In this document: in pieces, positions 21,540-28,692 of the stretch | How the letters are laid out: every line of letters begins with the position of its first letter | How positions within the stretch are numbered: position 1 is the stretch's first letter | Assembly: GCA_030728985.1 (NCBI GenBank) | Contig: JANQYI010000007.1 | Location: 1-32,808 of the forward strand | DNA: 32,808 nucleotides | Source of the DNA: Burkholderiaceae bacterium | Lineage (GTDB): Bacteria > Pseudomonadota > Gammaproteobacteria > Burkholderiales > Burkholderiaceae_B | Reading direction: 5' to 3' | Program-made: the position numbers and the translations under genes | The notes under the pieces: generated by a model | The model's database searches: none | Seen by the model: only the letters and a program-made list of their open reading frames with translations | Told to the model about the DNA's origin: nothing

Positions 21540-22402
21540 AAATTCTGACATGGAATGTTCAATGGTTCAAAGGACTCGACGGCGTCGTGGATATCGAGCG
21601 TGTCTTACATAAAGCCCGGGAGATGGCAGATTTTGATGTCCTCTGCATGCAGGAGATCAGTGTCAATTACCACGCCTTGACGGGGGAGACCCCTGCGGAC
21701 CAAGTGGCACGCGTACGCGAATTGCTGCCAGATTATGAGGTGTTCTTTGCTCCGGCAATCGATGAGTTATCCCCCTGCGGAACCTATCGCCAGCAGTTTG
21801 GAAATTTGATTGCTTCCCGTCTGCCTGTCCGCTTAGTTGAGCATATATTGTTGCCGGATCCGGCTGCAGAAGGTGAAAAAAATACGCCGAGTATGCGGCG
21901 CGTTTGTGTCGTGTGCACGGTAGAGGCACCTTGGGGGCCGGTACGCGTCATGACCTCGCACCTCGAGTATTACAACGCGACGGCACGCGTTGCTCAGGTC
22001 AGTGCGCTGCGAGAGATTCATCTTCGCGCATGCGCGCGGGCAGCTCGACCGCCAGAAACCATCCAAGACAGTCCCTACCAACGCAAGCCTTACACGATGG
22101 ATGCGGTGCTGTGTGGTGATTTTAATTTCGAGCTCGACAGTGCTGAGCATGCAACGATGATTCAGCCTGATCTTTTAGGCGCGCTGATAAACGCCTGGAC
22201 TACTTTGGATTCTTCAAAATCCTATCCCGCAACTTTTCGTATTTTTGATCGTACTTATGGGCCTGAGCCTGTAGGGTGCGACTTCTTTTTTGTCAGTCCC
22301 TCAATGGCCAAGCGTGTTCAAGTGGTGTCGGTCGATCAGCAGACTCAGGTTTCTGATCACCAGCCCGTGCTGCTTGAACTCAGTGACGTTATTGGTGCGT
22401 AA
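21536..22402 (+). CDS. Endonuclease/exonuclease/phosphatase (EEP) superfamily hydrolase coupled to ABC importer
   Basis: This is a 288-residue metal-dependent hydrolase of the DNase I-like/EEP superfamily with no signal peptide, so presumably cytoplasmic. All the usual catalytic positions are present: Asn7 (WNVQWF), Glu40 (MQEI), His142 (TSHLEYYN), Asp195 and Asn197 (CGDFNF), and Asp274-His275 (SDHQPV). The superfamily includes nucleases, sphingomyelinases, inositol phosphatases and other phosphodiesterases. The start overlaps the permease stop by 4 bases, so it is part of the importer operon and occupies the slot of ugpQ, which encodes an unrelated GDPD-fold glycerophosphodiesterase. I infer that it cleaves an imported phosphoester. 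A nuclease role seems less likely given the context. Confidence 0.85.
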   Translation: MKILTWNVQWFKGLDGVVDIERVLHKAREMADFDVLCMQEISVNYHALTGETPADQVARVRELLPDYEVFFAPAIDELSPCGTYRQQFGNLIASRLPVRLVEHILLPDPAAEGEKNTPSMRRVCVVCTVEAPWGPVRVMTSHLEYYNATARVAQVSALREIHLRACARAARPPETIQDSPYQRKPYTMDAVLCGDFNFELDSAEHATMIQPDLLGALINAWTTLDSSKSYPATFRIFDRTYGPEPVGCDFFFVSPSMAKRVQVVSVDQQTQVSDHQPVLLELSDVIGA

Positions 22403-22413
22403 GTGCCTGATGA

Positions 22414-22449
22414 GCACTGTCTTGGTGCGTTGTTGCACCAAGCTTTTGC
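22414..22449 (+). promoter_or_regulatory. Tandem NtrC-like enhancer sites
   Basis: Site 1 is GCACT-N5-GGTGC (22414-22428), which matches both half-sites of the NtrC (GlnG) consensus. Site 2 is GCACC-N5-TTTGC (22435-22449), with two mismatches in the right half-site. Their centres (22421 and 22442) are 21 bp apart, two helical turns, so they face the same side of the DNA. They lie about 50-80 bp upstream of a consensus sigma-54 promoter, the normal arrangement for an NtrC-activated gene. Confidence 0.7.
22421..22447 (+). terminator. Possible rho-independent terminator of the ABC-EEP operon
   Basis: CTTGGTGC (22421-22428) and GCACCAAG (22435-22442) form a perfect 8-bp stem with a 6-base loop, followed by CTTTTGC with only four Ts. 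It could end the upstream operon. The same bases also form the inner half-sites of the two NtrC-like sites, so the symmetry may come from protein binding rather than an RNA hairpin. The two functions are not exclusive. Confidence 0.4.
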
Positions 22450-22491
22450 ATTAAGCGTGTGAAAGCTCGCTATTTAGGCTCATCATTATTG

Positions 22492-22508
22492 TTGGCACGC
22501 TATTTGCT
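22492..22508 (+). promoter_or_regulatory. Sigma-54 (RpoN) promoter of the cyanate operon
   Basis: TTGGCACG-ctat-TTGCT is a full match to the sigma-54 -24/-12 consensus (YTGGCACG-N4-TTGCW). The GG (22494-22495) and GC (22506-22507) elements have the required spacing. Transcription should begin near 22519, about 30 bases before the ATG at 22548, leaving room for the AGGGG ribosome binding site at 22535-22539. Confidence 0.85.
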
Positions 22509-22547
22509 TTGACCCTTGTACCGAGTTTCATCACAGGGGTGTTCAAT

Positions 22548-23921
22548 ATGTCGATTTTTTCAAATCCATTTGATTCAAAGCTGCGTTTACGTTGTTCGTG
22601 TGGTCAGCATGTGTCAGCCGCTGAGCATGAGGCCAGTCAGATCGCGTCGTCTGAGTTGAGCGATCGTTCCAACGAGGCTCTCAACGCACGTGTTGTTGAG
22701 CAAGCCGTCATGCGAGCCGTATTTCCCCAAGACGATATGCGGCGAAGATTTTTGCAAGCTGTCGGGGCCCCCGCAGCTCTTGCAGCAGTCTCAGCAATTT
22801 TTCCAATGGCTTTTGCTAAAGAGGCATTTGCTCAAGGCGGAAAGCTGGAAAAAATGAATTTAAAGGTCGGCTTTATCCCGATTACTTGTGCAACACCTAT
22901 CATCATGGCTGATCCCATGGGCTTTTACAAAAAGCAGGGTCTCAATGTGGAGGTTGTGAAGACAGCAGGGTGGGCGGTGGTTCGGGATAAGGCGCTCAAT
23001 AAGGAGTATGACGCTGCCCATATGCTTTCGCCAATGCCACTGGCTATTTCAATGGGAGCAGGTGCCTCCCCGACACCCTACACTGTGCCTGCTATTGAAA
23101 ATATTAATGGTCAGGCGATTACCTTGGCGATCAAACATAAGGGCAAACGCAACCCTAAGGATTGGAAAGGCTTCAAGTTTGCGGTGCCCTTTGACTATTC
23201 GATGCACAACTATCTGCTTCGTTATTACCTTGCGGAAAATGGCATCGACCCTGATCGTGATGTTCAGATTAGAGTGGTGCCACCTCCAGAAATGGTCGCA
23301 AACTTACGCGCCGATAACATTGATGGGTTTTTGGCCCCCGACCCTGTTAATCAGCGTGCGGTGTATGACGGCGTAGGTTTTATCCATATCCTGTCAAAAG
23401 AGCTCTGGGACGGTCATCCATGCTGCGCCTTTGCGGCGAGCAAGGAGTTTATGACGGCGAATCCAAATACGTATAGCGCCTTGCTACGAGCGATTGTTGA
23501 AGCGACCGCGTATGCTCAAAAGGCTGAGAATCGAAAAGAAATTGCTGCGGCCATTCATACTCCAAACTATTTAAATCAACCGTTGACCGTCGTCGAACAG
23601 GTCTTGACGGGGACCTATGCCGATGGTTTGGGAAGCGTGAAAAAAGTCCCTGATCGTATTGGGTTTGATCCGATGCCCTGGGAATCATTCGCGGTGTGGA
23701 TTATGACGCAAATGCAGCGCTGGGGTCAGGTCAAAGGCGACGTTGATTACCAAAAGATCGCGCAAGAGGTGTTTCTGGCAACAGATGCCCGTCGTGCCAT
23801 GGAGCAAGCTGGTCTTGCGGTTCCCGCAGCAGGAAGTAAAAAAATTGTTGTCATGGGCAAGGTCTTTGACGCCAGCAAACCTAAGGAGTATCTCAATAGC
23901 TTTGCGATCAAGAGAGTTTGA
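22548..23921 (+). CDS. CmpA/NrtA-family ABC substrate-binding protein (probable cyanate, CynA-type)
   Basis: This is the exported receptor of a nitrate/cyanate/bicarbonate-type importer (457 residues). An unusual N-terminal region of about 64 residues, containing CSC (Cys16, Cys18) and H-rich AAEHEAS, precedes a Tat-like signal: RRRFLQAVG at 65-73, then a hydrophobic stretch ending AFAQG. The mature domain shows LKVGFIPITCATPIIMADPMGFYKKQGL, YDAAHMLSPMPLAISMG, GFKFAVPFDYSMHN and DGFLAPDPVNQRA, as in NrtA/CmpA proteins. I chose ATG 22548 because it has AGGGG 8 bases upstream and lies just downstream of the sigma-54 start; ATG 22737 would give a conventional Tat peptide but has no ribosome binding site. 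Cyanate is inferred from the downstream cyanase. Confidence 0.9.
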   Translation: MSIFSNPFDSKLRLRCSCGQHVSAAEHEASQIASSELSDRSNEALNARVVEQAVMRAVFPQDDMRRRFLQAVGAPAALAAVSAIFPMAFAKEAFAQGGKLEKMNLKVGFIPITCATPIIMADPMGFYKKQGLNVEVVKTAGWAVVRDKALNKEYDAAHMLSPMPLAISMGAGASPTPYTVPAIENINGQAITLAIKHKGKRNPKDWKGFKFAVPFDYSMHNYLLRYYLAENGIDPDRDVQIRVVPPPEMVANLRADNIDGFLAPDPVNQRAVYDGVGFIHILSKELWDGHPCCAFAASKEFMTANPNTYSALLRAIVEATAYAQKAENRKEIAAAIHTPNYLNQPLTVVEQVLTGTYADGLGSVKKVPDRIGFDPMPWESFAVWIMTQMQRWGQVKGDVDYQKIAQEVFLATDARRAMEQAGLAVPAAGSKKIVVMGKVFDASKPKEYLNSFAIKRV

Positions 23922-24763
23922 TGATGGTCAATGAGCGTGCGCGTGCTGTGATCTTGTCTGTTTTAATTTTTGCGATTTTCGTGATGTTTTGGCAAATCGC
24001 AACGATGCCGACTCAAGGTGCACAGATCGTTGATGAAGAGTATGCCAAACTCGTGGGCGCTGCAGCGGCTACAGGTCAAAAATCCACGTTTCCTGGGCCA
24101 TATGATGTGGGCGCAAAGTTAGTGGAACACTTGTCAGACCCTTTTTACGATCGTGGTGCGAACGATAAAGGTATCGGCATTCAATTGGCCTGGTCTGTAT
24201 CGCGGGTAGCGCTCGGATTCGGTTTGGCGGCTCTGGTCGCCATTCCGCTGGGTTTTTTAATTGGCATGTCTCGTCTGTTTTTTCAGGCGCTAGATCCTTT
24301 TATCCAAGTGCTCAAGCCAATTTCTCCGCTGGCTTGGATGCCTTTAGCGTTGTTCACACTGAAGGACTCGAATGTCTCCGCTGTTTTTGTGATTTTTATT
24401 TGCTCCATTTGGCCAATGCTTATCAATACTGCTTTTGGCGTGGCCTCTGTTCGAAAAGAGTGGATGGAGGTTTCCCGCACATTAGAAGTAAGTCCTCTGC
24501 GCAAGGCATTTTTTGTCATTCTACCCGCTGCGGCCCCCACGATTATGACGGGTATGCGGATTTCAATCGGCATTGCTTGGCTTGTGATTGTGGCCGCTGA
24601 AATGCTCGTGGGTGGGACTGGGATTGGATATTTCGTATGGAATGAGTGGAATAACTTATCTATTGCAAATATTTTAGTAGCCGTCCTGATGATCGGTTTC
24701 ATTGGAATGTTGCTTGACATGTGTTTTGCACGCCTTCAAAGAGCTGTGACATACAAAGATTAA
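23921..24763 (+). CDS. ABC transporter permease, NrtB/CynB-type
   Basis: This inner-membrane permease of 280 residues has an N-terminal hydrophobic segment ([19 protein letters not shown]), a periplasmic loop of about 70 residues, then the transport core: [35 protein letters not shown] and the ATPase-docking loop [38 protein letters not shown] and [14 protein letters not shown] are typical of NrtB/SsuC/TauC permeases, and the long loop favours NrtB. Its ATG overlaps the preceding stop (TGATG); the ATG 3 bases later is an alternative start. It probably works as a homodimer. Confidence 0.92.
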
Positions 24764-24780
24764 GCGTGAAAGGAACGTGC

Positions 24781-25584
24781 ATGATGCAAAATTTTTTACA
24801 AGTACAAGGTCTGCGCAAGACCTTTCCAGGTTTGAATGGCGCAGAGGACTTGGTTGTCTTTGATGATGTGAACTTCACCATTGATCGAGGTGAATTCGTC
24901 TGCATCATTGGTCATTCTGGTTGTGGCAAGACAACGATCTTGAATGTGTTGGCGGGTCTTGAAGAGCCAACTGACGGTCATTCTTTTATTGACGGACGTG
25001 AGATCAGCGGCCCAAGTCTTGACCGGGGTGTGGTGTTTCAAGCCCATGCGTTAATGCCTTGGATGACGGTTCGCAGCAATATTGCTTTTGCCGTGCGTTC
25101 CAAATGGCCAGACTGGTCACGTGAAAAAGTCGATGCGCAAGTCCAGCAGTATATCGATATGGTGCATTTGACGGGCTCCGAGGAAAAAAAACCGTCTCAA
25201 CTTTCAGGCGGGATGAAACAGCGTGTCGGCATTGCTCGCGCCTTTGCGATTCAACCGAAAATGTTGCTGCTCGATGAGCCTTTTGGCGCCTTGGATGCTC
25301 TGACGCGCGGCAACATACAAGATGAGCTCGTGACGATCGTGCGTGGCACACAGCAAACAGTGTTCATGATTACACACGACGTGGATGAGGCGATTTTGTT
25401 GTCAGACAAAATATTTTTAATGAGTAACGGACCACGTGCGGTACTCGCCGAGATTGTGAACAATCCTTTGCCCAAGGATCGCACGCGCGCAACGATGCAC
25501 CATGATCCCAAGTTTTACGAAGTTCGCAATCACCTGATTGATTTTTTGGTGCATCGGTCCAAGACCTATGCAGCCGCTGCATGA
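24781..25584 (+). CDS. ABC transporter ATP-binding protein, NrtD/CynD-type
   Basis: This is the ATPase for the cyanate-type importer (267 residues). Motifs are Walker [10 protein letters not shown] (44-52), Q-loop [13 protein letters not shown], signature LSGGMKQR, Walker [13 protein letters not shown] and H-loop [21 protein letters not shown] and [12 protein letters not shown] are typical of the nitrate/sulfonate/taurine class. It lacks the C-terminal substrate-binding fusion seen in cyanobacterial NrtC/CmpC, so it matches NrtD. The start was set at ATG 24781 with AAAGGA just upstream; an in-frame ATG at 24784 is possible. The cyanase gene follows after 38 AT-rich bases. Confidence 0.92.
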
Positions 25585-25622: not shown

Positions 25623-26093
25623 ATGGTTTCAAAAGCAATCGCAAAACCGATGACCCGCGAGGATGTGACGGATCTGATTTATTCGGCTAAGGTACAAAAG
25701 GGGCTGAAATGGGCTGATGTTGCCAAGAAAATCAAGCTTTCAAAAGAGTGGACTACAGCTGCTTGTATGGGACAAATGACACTCACCAAGGCTCAGGCGC
25801 TTGTAATTGGGAAAACATTTGATTTACCTGCCGAGGCCATCGCTCTTTTGCAGGTTGTCCCCTACAAGGGCTCTTTGCCTACTGCCGTGCCAACCGATCC
25901 ACTGATTTATCGCTGGTATGAAATCGTGAATGTTTATGGAACGACGATTAAAGAATTGATCCACGAAGAGTTTGGAGATGGCATCATGAGTGCGATTGAC
26001 TTTTCAATGGATATTAAACGCGAACCAGACCCGAAAGGCGACCGCGTCAACGTTGTTTTATCGGGTAAGTTTTTACCCTATAAGTCTTACTAA
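25623..26093 (+). CDS. cynS: Cyanate hydratase (cyanase) CynS
   Basis: Cyanase converts cyanate and bicarbonate to carbamate and CO2; carbamate then releases ammonia. The protein has 156 residues, identical in length to the E. coli enzyme. The catalytic triad is present one position later than in E. coli: Arg97 and Glu100 in YRWYEIVNVYG, and Ser123 in FGDGIMSAIDF. The N-terminal helix-turn-helix-like domain and the ending KFLPYKSY are also conserved. TAGGAG lies just upstream of the ATG. It is the last gene of the sigma-54-driven importer operon, so imported cyanate is used as a nitrogen source as well as detoxified. Neither cynT (carbonic anhydrase) nor cynR lies in the window. Confidence 0.97.
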   Translation: MVSKAIAKPMTREDVTDLIYSAKVQKGLKWADVAKKIKLSKEWTTAACMGQMTLTKAQALVIGKTFDLPAEAIALLQVVPYKGSLPTAVPTDPLIYRWYEIVNVYGTTIKELIHEEFGDGIMSAIDFSMDIKREPDPKGDRVNVVLSGKFLPYKSY

Positions 26094-26177: not shown

Positions 26178-27431
26178 ATGGCGGTTTTACAAGAAGTCGG
26201 TCAAGACATTATGCAGTGGTCTGAGCGCTTGGCTCAGCACAGCGAGCCAGGTTGGGTAGAGAAGGGTCAGTTAACGGTGACGTATCTGACCCCGGCCCAT
26301 CTGGCGGTTGCGGCTGAGCTCAAAGCGTTGATGCAAGAAGCCGGTTTTGATGAGGTTTCGGTCGATGCCGTCGGTAATGTGGTCGGCGTTTATCATGGCG
26401 ACACCACAGACGCTGCGTCGCTGCTGACAGGCTCTCATTACGACACTGTGCGCAATGGCGGCAAATATGATGGTCGCTTGGGCATTTTGATACCCATCGC
26501 GGTTGTGAAATCCCTTTCTAGTCAAAAGCGTCGCTTGCCCTATGGTATCGAGGTTGTTGGTTTCTCCGAAGAAGAAGGTCAGAGATTTCGCGCGACCTTC
26601 TTGGCTGCTGGCGCGTTGACGGGTAGTTTCGATCCCGAATGGTTGTCCCAACGTGACGTCGATGGCATTTCCATGGCTGAGGCGATGAAAACGGCTGGCC
26701 TGCCCGGAACCCTCGCAGCCATCCAGACGATTAAGCGTGACCCACAAAAATACCTCGGCTTTGTCGAGGTGCATATCGAGCAGGGTCCCGTTCTCTGCGG
26801 AAAAGAGCTTCCGCTTGGTGTGGTGACTTCGATCAATGCGGGTGTTAGAGCCACGTGTAAAACCATCGGTCTTGCAGGGCATGCGGGGACAACACCCATG
26901 TCGATGCGGCAGGATGCGATGTTGGCCGCAGCGGAAATCAGTCTGATGGCCGAACAGCGCGCGCGTCTCGACGAGGGGTCGGTGGCGACGGTCGGGCAGA
27001 TACAGGTACCTGGCGGCTCGATTAATGTGATTCCGGGCGAGTGTGTCTTTACCTTGGATATGCGCGCGCCAACAGACCCGCAGCGTGATGCTTTAGTCTC
27101 GAATATTGTCAAAGAAGCGCACGCAATTGCGAACCGCAGACAAGTCCAGTTCGAATACACCGAGGTGATGCGTGCGAGTGCTGCACCCTCTGATCCTGGC
27201 TGGCAGTTGCGCTGGGAGAGGGCGGTCGCCAAGATCGGACAGCCCGTATTCAAGCTTAATAGCGGTGCCGGTCACGATGCCATGAAAATGCACACCATTA
27301 TGCCGCAGGCGATGTTGTTTGTGCGGGGTGGCAATCGCGGCATCAGTCACAATCCTCTTGAAATCATTACTGCCCAGGACGCCACGCTCGCGACTCAAGC
27401 TTTTGAAGCCTTATTAGACGAAATCAACTAA
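26178..27431 (+). CDS. Zn-dependent hydrolase, M20 allantoate amidohydrolase/carbamoylase type
   Basis: This is a binuclear metal hydrolase of the hydantoinase/carbamoylase branch of the M20 family (417 residues), which removes carbamoyl groups from ureides or N-carbamoyl amino acids with release of ammonia and CO2. Metal ligands appear in order: His87 (TGSHYDTV), Asp98 (GGKYDGRLG), Glu132/Glu133 (SEEEGQRF), His199 (VEVHIEQGP) and His391 (GISHNP). The dimerisation lid contains GLAGHAGTTPM. Allantoate amidohydrolase is a likely reading but the substrate is unproven. The start is ATG 26178 with AGGGA 6 bases upstream, inside a long inverted repeat. It follows cynS by 84 bases and precedes another M20 gene by 16. 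Confidence 0.88.
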   Translation: MAVLQEVGQDIMQWSERLAQHSEPGWVEKGQLTVTYLTPAHLAVAAELKALMQEAGFDEVSVDAVGNVVGVYHGDTTDAASLLTGSHYDTVRNGGKYDGRLGILIPIAVVKSLSSQKRRLPYGIEVVGFSEEEGQRFRATFLAAGALTGSFDPEWLSQRDVDGISMAEAMKTAGLPGTLAAIQTIKRDPQKYLGFVEVHIEQGPVLCGKELPLGVVTSINAGVRATCKTIGLAGHAGTTPMSMRQDAMLAAAEISLMAEQRARLDEGSVATVGQIQVPGGSINVIPGECVFTLDMRAPTDPQRDALVSNIVKEAHAIANRRQVQFEYTEVMRASAAPSDPGWQLRWERAVAKIGQPVFKLNSGAGHDAMKMHTIMPQAMLFVRGGNRGISHNPLEIITAQDATLATQAFEALLDEIN

Positions 27432-27447
27432 AAACCCATCCTAAAAC

Positions 27448-28692
27448 ATGAACAACAATAATCACGCCGAACTCTATACCAAGCTTGATCAATGGATCGA
27501 CGCGCACTTTGACGAGCAAGTGAAATTTTTGCAATCGGTCATCCAAGTTCCGACCGATACGCCACCAGGCAACAACACACCACATGCCGTTCATGTTGCC
27601 AAATTGATTGAGTCTTTTGGCATGAAAGCCGAGCAACATACTGTACCCGAGGCCGTGGTACGTGAGGCAGGACTGGAGTCGATTACGAACCTCATCGTTA
27701 AAAGACAATACGCGGACGGTGGCAAAGTTTTGGCGCTCAATGCCCACGGTGACGTAGTGCCACCTGGGGAAGGGTGGACCTATCCTCCTTACGGAGGCGA
27801 AATACATGACGGTCGCATCTATGGACGTGCGGCGGCTGTCAGCAAGTGTGATTTTTCGACGTACATTTTTGCTGTGCGCGCGCTTGAGTCACTTGGCGTG
27901 CCGCTCAATGGACGTATCGAATTACAGTTCACCTACGACGAAGAGTTCGGTGGAGAGTTAGGCCCTGGTTGGCTGCTCAAAAATAATCTTACCAAGCCTG
28001 ATCTTGCAATTGCGGCGGGTTTTAGTTATCAAATTATTACTGCGCATAACGGGTGCTTGCAGTTTGAGGTAACAGTGAACGGCAAAATGGGGCACGCGGC
28101 TGTGCCCACTTCAGGTGTGGACGCGCTTCAGGCCGCCGTCAAGATCATGAACGCGCTATATGGTCTGAATGAGACCTATAAGTCGGTTAAAAGTCAGGTT
28201 CCAGGGATTAATCATCCCTACTTGAACATCGGTTTGATTCAAGGGGGTACCAACACCAATGTGATTCCCGGCAAAGTCGTTCTCAAGCTTGACCGACGGA
28301 TGATTCCCGAAGAGGACCCAGCGCAGGTTGAGGCGAGTATTCGCGCGACGATTGATGCGGTCTGGAAGCAAATCCCAGGTATCACGGCTGAAACCAAGCG
28401 TATTTTGTTGGCCCGTGCGCTCAAGCCTCTGCCCGGGAGCACCGAGCTCGTCGAGGCTTTGCAACATCATGCTGAAACACAGTTTGGCGAAAAAGTCCCT
28501 GCTTGCGGAACACCGCTTTACGCTGATGCGCGTTTGTATTGCGAAGCGGGTATTCCTGTCGTGTTGTATGGTGCCGGTCCCCGTACCGTCGAGGAAAGTC
28601 GTGCCAAGCAGCCTGATGAGCGCCTGGAGCTCGAGGATTTACGTCGGGCGACGAAAGTGATCGCCCGAACCTGTCTCGATATGATGCGCTAA
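27448..28692 (+). CDS. M20 family peptidase/deacylase (ArgE/DapE-like) with altered metal-site motifs
   Basis: This 414-residue protein has the ArgE/DapE fold: NAHGDVVPPGEGW (His100, Asp102), the acidic pair Glu165-Glu166 in YDEEFGGELGPGW, a lid domain with GKMGHAAVP, and DARLYCEAGIPVVLYGAGP. The usual bridging aspartate of GRGxxDMK is Val131 here (GRAAAVSKCDF), and the usual AHxPDE histidine is Lys387 (AKQPDE), so the binuclear zinc site may be partial or remodelled. I recall relatives with an AVSKSDF-type motif, so this may be a subfamily trait. The substrate is unknown; an N-acyl or peptide amide is likely. It is cotranscribed with the preceding hydrolase, and its stop lies 1 base from the convergent amidohydrolase stop. 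Confidence 0.85.
   Translation: MNNNNHAELYTKLDQWIDAHFDEQVKFLQSVIQVPTDTPPGNNTPHAVHVAKLIESFGMKAEQHTVPEAVVREAGLESITNLIVKRQYADGGKVLALNAHGDVVPPGEGWTYPPYGGEIHDGRIYGRAAAVSKCDFSTYIFAVRALESLGVPLNGRIELQFTYDEEFGGELGPGWLLKNNLTKPDLAIAAGFSYQIITAHNGCLQFEVTVNGKMGHAAVPTSGVDALQAAVKIMNALYGLNETYKSVKSQVPGINHPYLNIGLIQGGTNTNVIPGKVVLKLDRRMIPEEDPAQVEASIRATIDAVWKQIPGITAETKRILLARALKPLPGSTELVEALQHHAETQFGEKVPACGTPLYADARLYCEAGIPVVLYGAGPRTVEESRAKQPDERLELEDLRRATKVIARTCLDMMR

Follow-up and report, generated by a model that had tools for sequence, protein, structure and literature searches.

The cynTSX genes of Escherichia coli are controlled by CynR, and the cyn genes of cyanobacteria by NtcA. A different arrangement has been described for the cynFABDS genes of Pseudomonas pseudoalcaligenes CECT5344, where a putative sigma-54 promoter precedes cynA and CynF is a dedicated activator; cynABDS of this organism is strongly induced by cyanate and repressed by ammonium, CynF being essential (PMC6627978). 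Sigma-54 control of cynABDS had already been proposed in Pseudomonas, a precedent that was left out of the preliminary description of the DNA analysed here. Cyanate lyase has also been listed among the sigma-54-enriched genes of alpha- and gammaproteobacteria (PMC12316311). The NtrC regulon of proteobacteria has been described to include glnA, glnB/K-amtB and genes for nitrate and urea transport (PMC5343134), and the main text of that survey, its regulon tables apart, contains no word beginning with cyn or cyan. None of the cyn terms tried occurs in a study of E. coli RpoN and NtrC targets (PMC8743547), and passages of two further papers (PMC10965572 and PMC11103875) proved irrelevant. Judged by titles and the openings of abstracts, no description of NtrC sites at a cyn promoter was found among the papers listed. 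For the cynABDS operon described below, control by NtrC and sigma-54 is very probable on the evidence of sequence comparison.

The window, that is the whole stretch of 32,808 nt that was analysed, corresponds to contig 7, bases 1-32808, in a draft genome of 2.35 Mb that is 86.7% complete. The genus is one of freshwater Alcaligenaceae, with Zwartia panacis as its closest named isolate. The description of Zwartia mentions NtrB/NtrC for three genomes and cyanate lyase for two of them, in passages that say nothing on how cyanate lyase is regulated (PMC10535154). The importer-cyanase operon put forward in the preliminary description is present, with binding protein, permease, ATPase and cyanase following one another in this order (Table 1). 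The cynA product reached the cut-off of no NCBIfam model, the best being that of the SsuA family (63.2 versus 163.5 bits). The models above cut-off for the importer name nitrate; the substrate of CynABD is probably cyanate, as suggested by linkage to cynS. The N-terminus of CynA (22548-22830) shows a CSCGQH stretch followed by a twin-arginine-like RRRFLQ signal. Two further genes form a possible extension of the operon. Among 80 named cyn loci fetched as relatives (the best 80 of at least 587 confirmed), the carbamoylase-family amidase lies 3' of cynS in eight, all from the same genus, and the ArgE/DapE-like deacylase comes next in seven, one contig ending early. Since cyanate carbamoylates amino acids, it is conceivable that the amidase and the deacylase serve the salvage of N-carbamoyl amino acids.

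Table 1. Features of the cyn locus in the window, and members of the PAS sensor family at other cyn loci
Feature	Position	Strand	Evidence or remark
Putative main NtrC-type enhancer palindrome, GCACTGTCTTGGTGC (GCACT-GTCTT-GGTGC)	22414..22428	.	glnK matrix and conservation
Weak, doubtful second NtrC-like site, GCACCAAGCTTTTGC (GCACC-AAGCT-TTTGC)	22435..22449	.	10.6 bits; centre 22442
9-bp inverted repeat with 4-nt loop bridging both NtrC-like sites (hairpin or weak terminator of upstream gene)	22421..22442	+	stem scan
Sigma-54 promoter, -24/-12 elements, TTGGCACG-CTAT-TTGCT	22492..22508	+	13/13 consensus positions
Expected transcription start of cynA	22519	+	from the usual spacing to the -12 element
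cynA, substrate-binding protein of NrtA/SsuA-like ABC importer, 457 aa	22548..23921	+	sequence and NCBIfam search
cynB, permease	23918..24763	+	nitrate ABC permease model above cut-off; listed ORF, start unrefined
cynD, ATPase	24721..25584	+	nitrate ABC ATPase model above cut-off; listed ORF, start unrefined
cynS, cyanase	25623..26093	+	NCBIfam NF002773 (225.1 vs 150 bits), TIGR00673 (165.2 vs 113.3 bits)
Hydantoinase/carbamoylase-family amidase, possible operon extension	26178..27431	+	NCBIfam/ORF evidence
ArgE/DapE-family deacylase, possible operon extension	27448..28692	+	NCBIfam/ORF evidence
PAS sensor family member	L087:4933-5373	-	beside cynA
PAS sensor family member	L038:3414-4559		beside cynA
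PAS sensor family member	L051:4074-5216		beside cynA
PAS sensor family member	L072:4033-5253		beside cynA

The full match to the sigma-54 consensus that had been claimed ahead of cynA is present as written, with the GG-N10-GC core and its TGGCACG/TTGC surroundings. The pattern searched, YTGGCACGNNNNTTGCW (the sigma-54 consensus), occurs without mismatch once in the window, with 0.01 occurrences expected from shuffles; at up to two mismatches there is no enrichment (43 matches versus 45 expected). Ten bases separate the -24 GG from the -12 GC, and the C of the -12 element lies 41 bases ahead of the ATG at 22548. Transcription from sigma-54 promoters usually starts 12 bp from the -12 element, on which the start expected for cynA is based. 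Candidates for a sigma-70 promoter ahead of cynA were sought between 22300 and 28800, and the two matches obtained both lie on the minus strand within cynA or cynB. The start regions of cynA (22504-22522) and glnA (L183:1857-2083) have TTGCTTTGACC[C/T]TTGTACC in common, from the -12 element onward.

Both NtrC-like half-site pairs upstream of this promoter carry the letters reported for them, and their centres lie 21 bp apart. The main palindrome has its centre at 22421, which puts it 86 bp ahead of the -12 element and at about -98 relative to the expected start. GCACYN5RGTGC occurs without mismatch once in the window, where 0.14 are expected and 14 of 100 shuffles reach that number; at looser matching, NtrC-like palindromes are not enriched (32 versus 51 expected). 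A weight matrix was made with zero cyn sequences: 30 PII loci of the genus were fetched and 14 were used, namely those in which a sigma-54 match lies 37-46 bp ahead of a glnK-type gene. Among the 16 outside the matrix are L173 and L178, where the sigma-54 site is perfect and about 157 bp from the gene that follows. The matrix (17 bp, symmetric, 16.4 bits) takes one best site per glnK promoter, chosen by the NtrC consensus; in a seedless inverted-repeat scan of the 14 promoters, GCAC-N7-GTGC was the commonest repeat (10/14). Scoring the window with it gave 15.7 bits for 22413-22429, the top rank, and 10.6 bits for 22434-22450, the third rank; 4 of 32,792 positions reach 10 bits or more. Matrix scoring, proposed in the preliminary description as a check, thus places the main cyn palindrome at the top of the window with an independent matrix. 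When the genome is aligned with its four closest relatives, no other block of 15 columns upstream of the promoter is as well conserved as this palindrome, 10 of its 15 columns being invariant compared with a mean of 2.4.

The strongly conserved blocks in this five-genome alignment are the main NtrC-type site and the stretch from the promoter to the start, which bears on whether cyanate is sensed by a second regulator. Under such dual control, NtrC and sigma-54 would answer to nitrogen and an unlinked classical regulator, for instance a CynR-like LysR protein, to cyanate by induction or repression, for which CynR of E. coli offers a precedent. Given these two conserved blocks, and given that none of the 29 proteins of the window that were scanned (NCBIfam for 10, Pfam for 20, both for one, smaller and overlapping ORFs falling outside the scan) showed a transcription-regulator family, such dual control is considered unlikely in comparison with control by NtrC and sigma-54.

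The second NtrC-like site has two mismatches to the half-site pattern, and no conservation of it was seen in the alignment of the four closest relatives. Its left half and the right half of the main site pair over 9 bp to form a hairpin, and the RNA fold z-score for 22403-22470 is -2.93. The tandem NtrC-like enhancers of the preliminary description are therefore better described as one well-supported site, first by matrix and conserved, and one doubtful site. Two consecutive hairpins (22421-22467) lie between the upstream gene and the promoter. The 9-bp stem, the short T stretch after it and the fold score would also suit a hairpin that terminates the upstream gene, whose stop is at 22402, and merely resembles NtrC sites, and an 8-bp stem overlaps the main site in the relative L008. 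This alternative is nonetheless very unlikely, as the T stretch is weak, the glnK-promoter matrix puts the main site first, and relatives keep the GCAC/GGTGC pattern but not the stem, which is a different one in L008, L009 and L010 and missing in L091. It accounts better for the second site than for the main one. The promoter of the PII gene likewise has a strong and a weak NtrC site (22.4 and 10.0 bits), and the weak site at cynA may be a helper, as that of the PII gene may be, or a mere hairpin arm.

The components needed for control by NtrC and sigma-54 (NtrB/NtrC and sigma-54) are all encoded in the draft genome. It has one rpoN gene and the gene order glnA-ntrB-ntrC, with NtrB above its model cut-off. 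Searching with Sigma54_activat (PF00158) gave six places, of which one is a full-strength enhancer-binding protein (6.0e-70) and the other five score 1.3e-6 or weaker; the former is NtrC by its NCBIfam model (670.6 bits, cut-off 558.6). As the draft is 86.7% complete, another sigma-54 activator could be missing from it. No divergent sigma-54 activator adjoins cynA beside this operon. Perfect sigma-54 sites number five in the draft and count as four, because two contig ends repeat one region; the genes downstream are cynA, the PII gene, urtA and the gene of a TorF-type porin. The PII gene is taken as glnK (best model 180.4 bits, cut-off 181), and its region is found twice, near the ends of G000 contigs C22 and C35 (L120, L122), probably as an assembly duplicate.

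Backward-pattern controls in this genome gave high counts. With up to one mismatch allowed, 16 control matches stand against 24 for the sigma-54 pattern, and there are seven control palindromes against 11 places (10 distinct) with a perfect GCACYN5RGTGC palindrome; many lone matches of either kind are therefore due to chance. Among the 11 perfect palindromes, a sigma-54 site above 10/13 follows within 15-230 bp only at cynA and the PII gene, and among the 19 one-mismatch sigma-54 sites, an NtrC-like site above 10 bits within 200 bp was found only before a peptide/nickel-type ABC operon. This operon (L184:957-2813), a possible further regulon member, has two NtrC-like sites, which score 12.2 and 7.6 bits. 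The glnA gene has an 11/13 sigma-54 promoter and a 17.7-bit NtrC site. At urtA the promoter is perfect and the best NtrC site reaches 2.4 bits, which counts against a perfectly regular NtrC regulon. Most likely, cynABDS belongs to a compact regulon of NtrC and sigma-54 in the genus.

Homologues of this cynA were identified in 23 of 32 genus genomes (80-100% identity), a 24th having a 36% paralogue alone. The comparison of upstream regions in Alcaligenaceae that had been suggested in the preliminary description found the promoter kept in all 23 cyn-bearing genomes (sigma-54 match of at least 10/13, 38-43 bp before cynA; perfect in 14/23). An NtrC-matrix site of at least 11 bits lies within 180 bp upstream in 21 of the 23, the exceptions being L012 (9.3 bits) and L108 (10.2 bits), and the shuffle p for this matrix is 0.04 or lower in all 23. 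The position of the best NtrC-type site varies from -70 to -150 relative to the -12 element. Nine loci form a second group, in which two other sites are conserved, farther from the promoter and with a spacing of about 39 bases; paired sites therefore recur, though at another place. Two of the records, L012 and L014, are MAGs titled Bordetella parapertussis and Candidatus Methylopumilus that bear the operon of this genus, and as the DNA upstream of it does not differ from that in genus genomes G005 and G013, the titles look wrong.

Sigma-54 activators were counted at E 1e-30 in the 23 cyn-bearing genus genomes: exactly one was found in 13, two or more in nine and none in one (an 89% complete draft). 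Of the 13 single-activator genomes, five have a completeness of 90% or more and a contamination of 5% or less; all 13 have a cyn promoter of at least 11/13, and 12 an NtrC site of at least 11 bits. The single activator of these other genomes is probably NtrC as well, to judge by near-equal scores and frame lengths, the identification by model having been made in the genome described here.

The cyn loci of other genera are organized differently. In 18 of the 80 fetched loci (the best 80 of at least 587), all titled Alphaproteobacteria, a divergent sigma-54 activator with a common PAS sensor lies beside cynA. L064 and L071 were first counted with the loci having an activator neighbour and then left out as doubtful, the doubts being a weak promoter together with an activator like that of L028, and an activator gene located downstream of the operon; later counts refer to the 18. 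Pfam analysis, run on one activator, showed PAS domains in that of L087, and the other PAS activators share 65-83% identity with it where they match. None of these 18 loci has an NtrC site at a threshold of 10 or 11 bits, and five have one at 9 bits. Where sigma-54 cyn loci have no neighbouring activator, 28 of the 37 counted have an NtrC site of at least 11 bits. Dropped before the first count of NtrC sites against neighbouring activators were L012, L018, L047 and L079, for short upstream sequence, and loci whose best promoter scored below 10/13 or lay outside 30-75 bp before cynA. L028 combines a strong NtrC site with a neighbouring activator of a different, GAF type. Eight loci (L023, L024, L033, L046, L053, L061, L073 and L075) have a sigma-54 match before cynA and neither an NtrC site of at least 11 bits nor a neighbouring activator.

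Relatives of the PAS sensor occur beyond these activators. With the sensor of the divergent L087 activator (residues 154-300) as query, relatives of about 36-47% identity were identified upstream of cynA in 24 further loci lacking a sigma-54 match of at least 10, from Achromobacter, Limnobacter, Azoarcus and others. Three of these were examined (L038, L051 and L072), and in each the gene encodes a PAS histidine kinase, next to which comes a response regulator that has receiver and LuxR-type domains. By class, a PAS relative lies upstream in 18/20 activator loci, 24/26 loci without the promoter, 0/17 NtrC-type loci, 0/8 promoter-only loci and 0/1 mixed locus, eight loci with less than 2.5 kb upstream being left out of this count. 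The loci "without the promoter" are the rest class, which also includes L080 (9/13) and, with good sigma-54 matches, L012, L018, L047 and L079; the latter four have too little upstream sequence and stand outside the count by class. The PAS family found beside cynA is a candidate cyanate sensor. NtrC-like palindromes in Achromobacter were rejected as NtrC sites: the palindrome of L043 lies within the end of the coding region of the response-regulator gene upstream, this stretch aligns in the nine Achromobacter loci compared (L032 left out), and there is no sigma-54 core after it (7-9/13).

No relative of the PAS sensor was found at E 1e-5 in the genome described here, and therefore the local sensor of other genera was not found there. 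Matches in 11 of the 32 genus genomes all have 26-34% identity (E down to 2e-12) and are read as other PAS proteins. As an alternative, sigma-54 could drive cynABDS through an enhancer-binding protein of the CynF type that responds to cyanate and has its gene at another place in the genome. The published CynF (PMC6627978) and the PAS-type activators adjoining cynA in alphaproteobacterial loci speak in its favour. It is highly improbable, NtrC being the sole full-strength activator found in the draft, 13 of the 23 cyn-bearing genus genomes having exactly one activator, and the PAS matches in the genus being so remote.

Under the proposed control by NtrC and sigma-54, nitrogen limitation would lead NtrB to phosphorylate NtrC. 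Phosphorylated NtrC would bind the main palindrome, perhaps aided by the adjoining weak site, and loop to the sigma-54 polymerase at the promoter, with transcription from near the expected start. CynABD would then import cyanate, and CynS would split it into CO2 and ammonium. As no local cyanate-sensing activator was found, the main signal would be nitrogen status and not cyanate, and we lean, with some reserve, towards cyanate having no strong role in induction. The earlier proposal that the operon is switched on by nitrogen limitation rather than mainly by cyanate appears to fit the comparative evidence (NtrC as sole full-strength activator, the promoters of nitrogen genes, and neither a local regulator nor a PAS relative upstream of the testable loci); the second enhancer, as a conserved element, drops out of it.

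The three cyn control types require four changes over the 70 labelled rows of a tree of 90 CynA proteins, and the NtrC-type and activator-type loci alone require two. The loci are therefore not independent observations, and represent few switches, each with later conservation; for this reason the Fisher p of 1.8e-7 for NtrC site versus neighbouring activator is not used as a test of independence. Most NtrC-type loci fall in the freshwater Alcaligenaceae clade, with L025, L034 and L054 elsewhere on the tree, and a single clade of NtrC-type loci is rejected (p-AU 0.0007, for a group named after the first tree was seen). A wider account, about evenly poised between right and wrong, would be that of one operon with three masters. 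In it, cynABDS has been rewired more than once with its gene order kept. The PAS sensor is fused to a sigma-54 activator in most of the fetched alphaproteobacterial loci and, in Achromobacter, Limnobacter, Azoarcus and others, belongs where examined to a kinase paired with a NarL-type regulator. It was not found in the freshwater Alcaligenaceae nor, as a separate case, in a few further betaproteobacteria; there NtrC would act on the same kind of sigma-54 promoter at nearly the same position, so that cyanate would be scavenged on nitrogen hunger alone, unsensed. If true, this would be a clear case of an operon moved, in either direction, between substrate sensing and global nitrogen control, the switch being made by a changed enhancer and activator around a kept sigma-54 core. 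Cyanate would then be a routine nitrogen source in nutrient-poor fresh water, and the PAS family would gain interest as a candidate for its sensor.

The cyn genes of E. coli and cyanobacteria resemble the present ones in encoding cyanase, those of cyanobacteria also in having an ABC importer and nitrogen control, but both are under other regulators and are not known to use sigma-54. There is a likeness also to cynFABDS of P. pseudoalcaligenes (PMC6627978), which has the same four structural genes in the same order and a putative sigma-54 promoter before cynA; unlike that system with its divergent sigma-54 activator CynF, the operon described here has no such neighbour and an NtrC-type site at its promoter, and no PAS-sensor relative was found. 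The 18 alphaproteobacterial PAS-activator loci share the arrangement of the Pseudomonas genes, being likened to them by gene layout, with the PAS sensor seen in the fetched activators. With the NtrC regulon of proteobacteria as described (PMC5343134), the operon has the activator family, the palindrome and the sigma-54 core in common, and glnA and the PII gene of its own genome have both elements. Control of cyn genes by NtrC without a local regulator would be the new feature of this locus, and one well supported by comparison.
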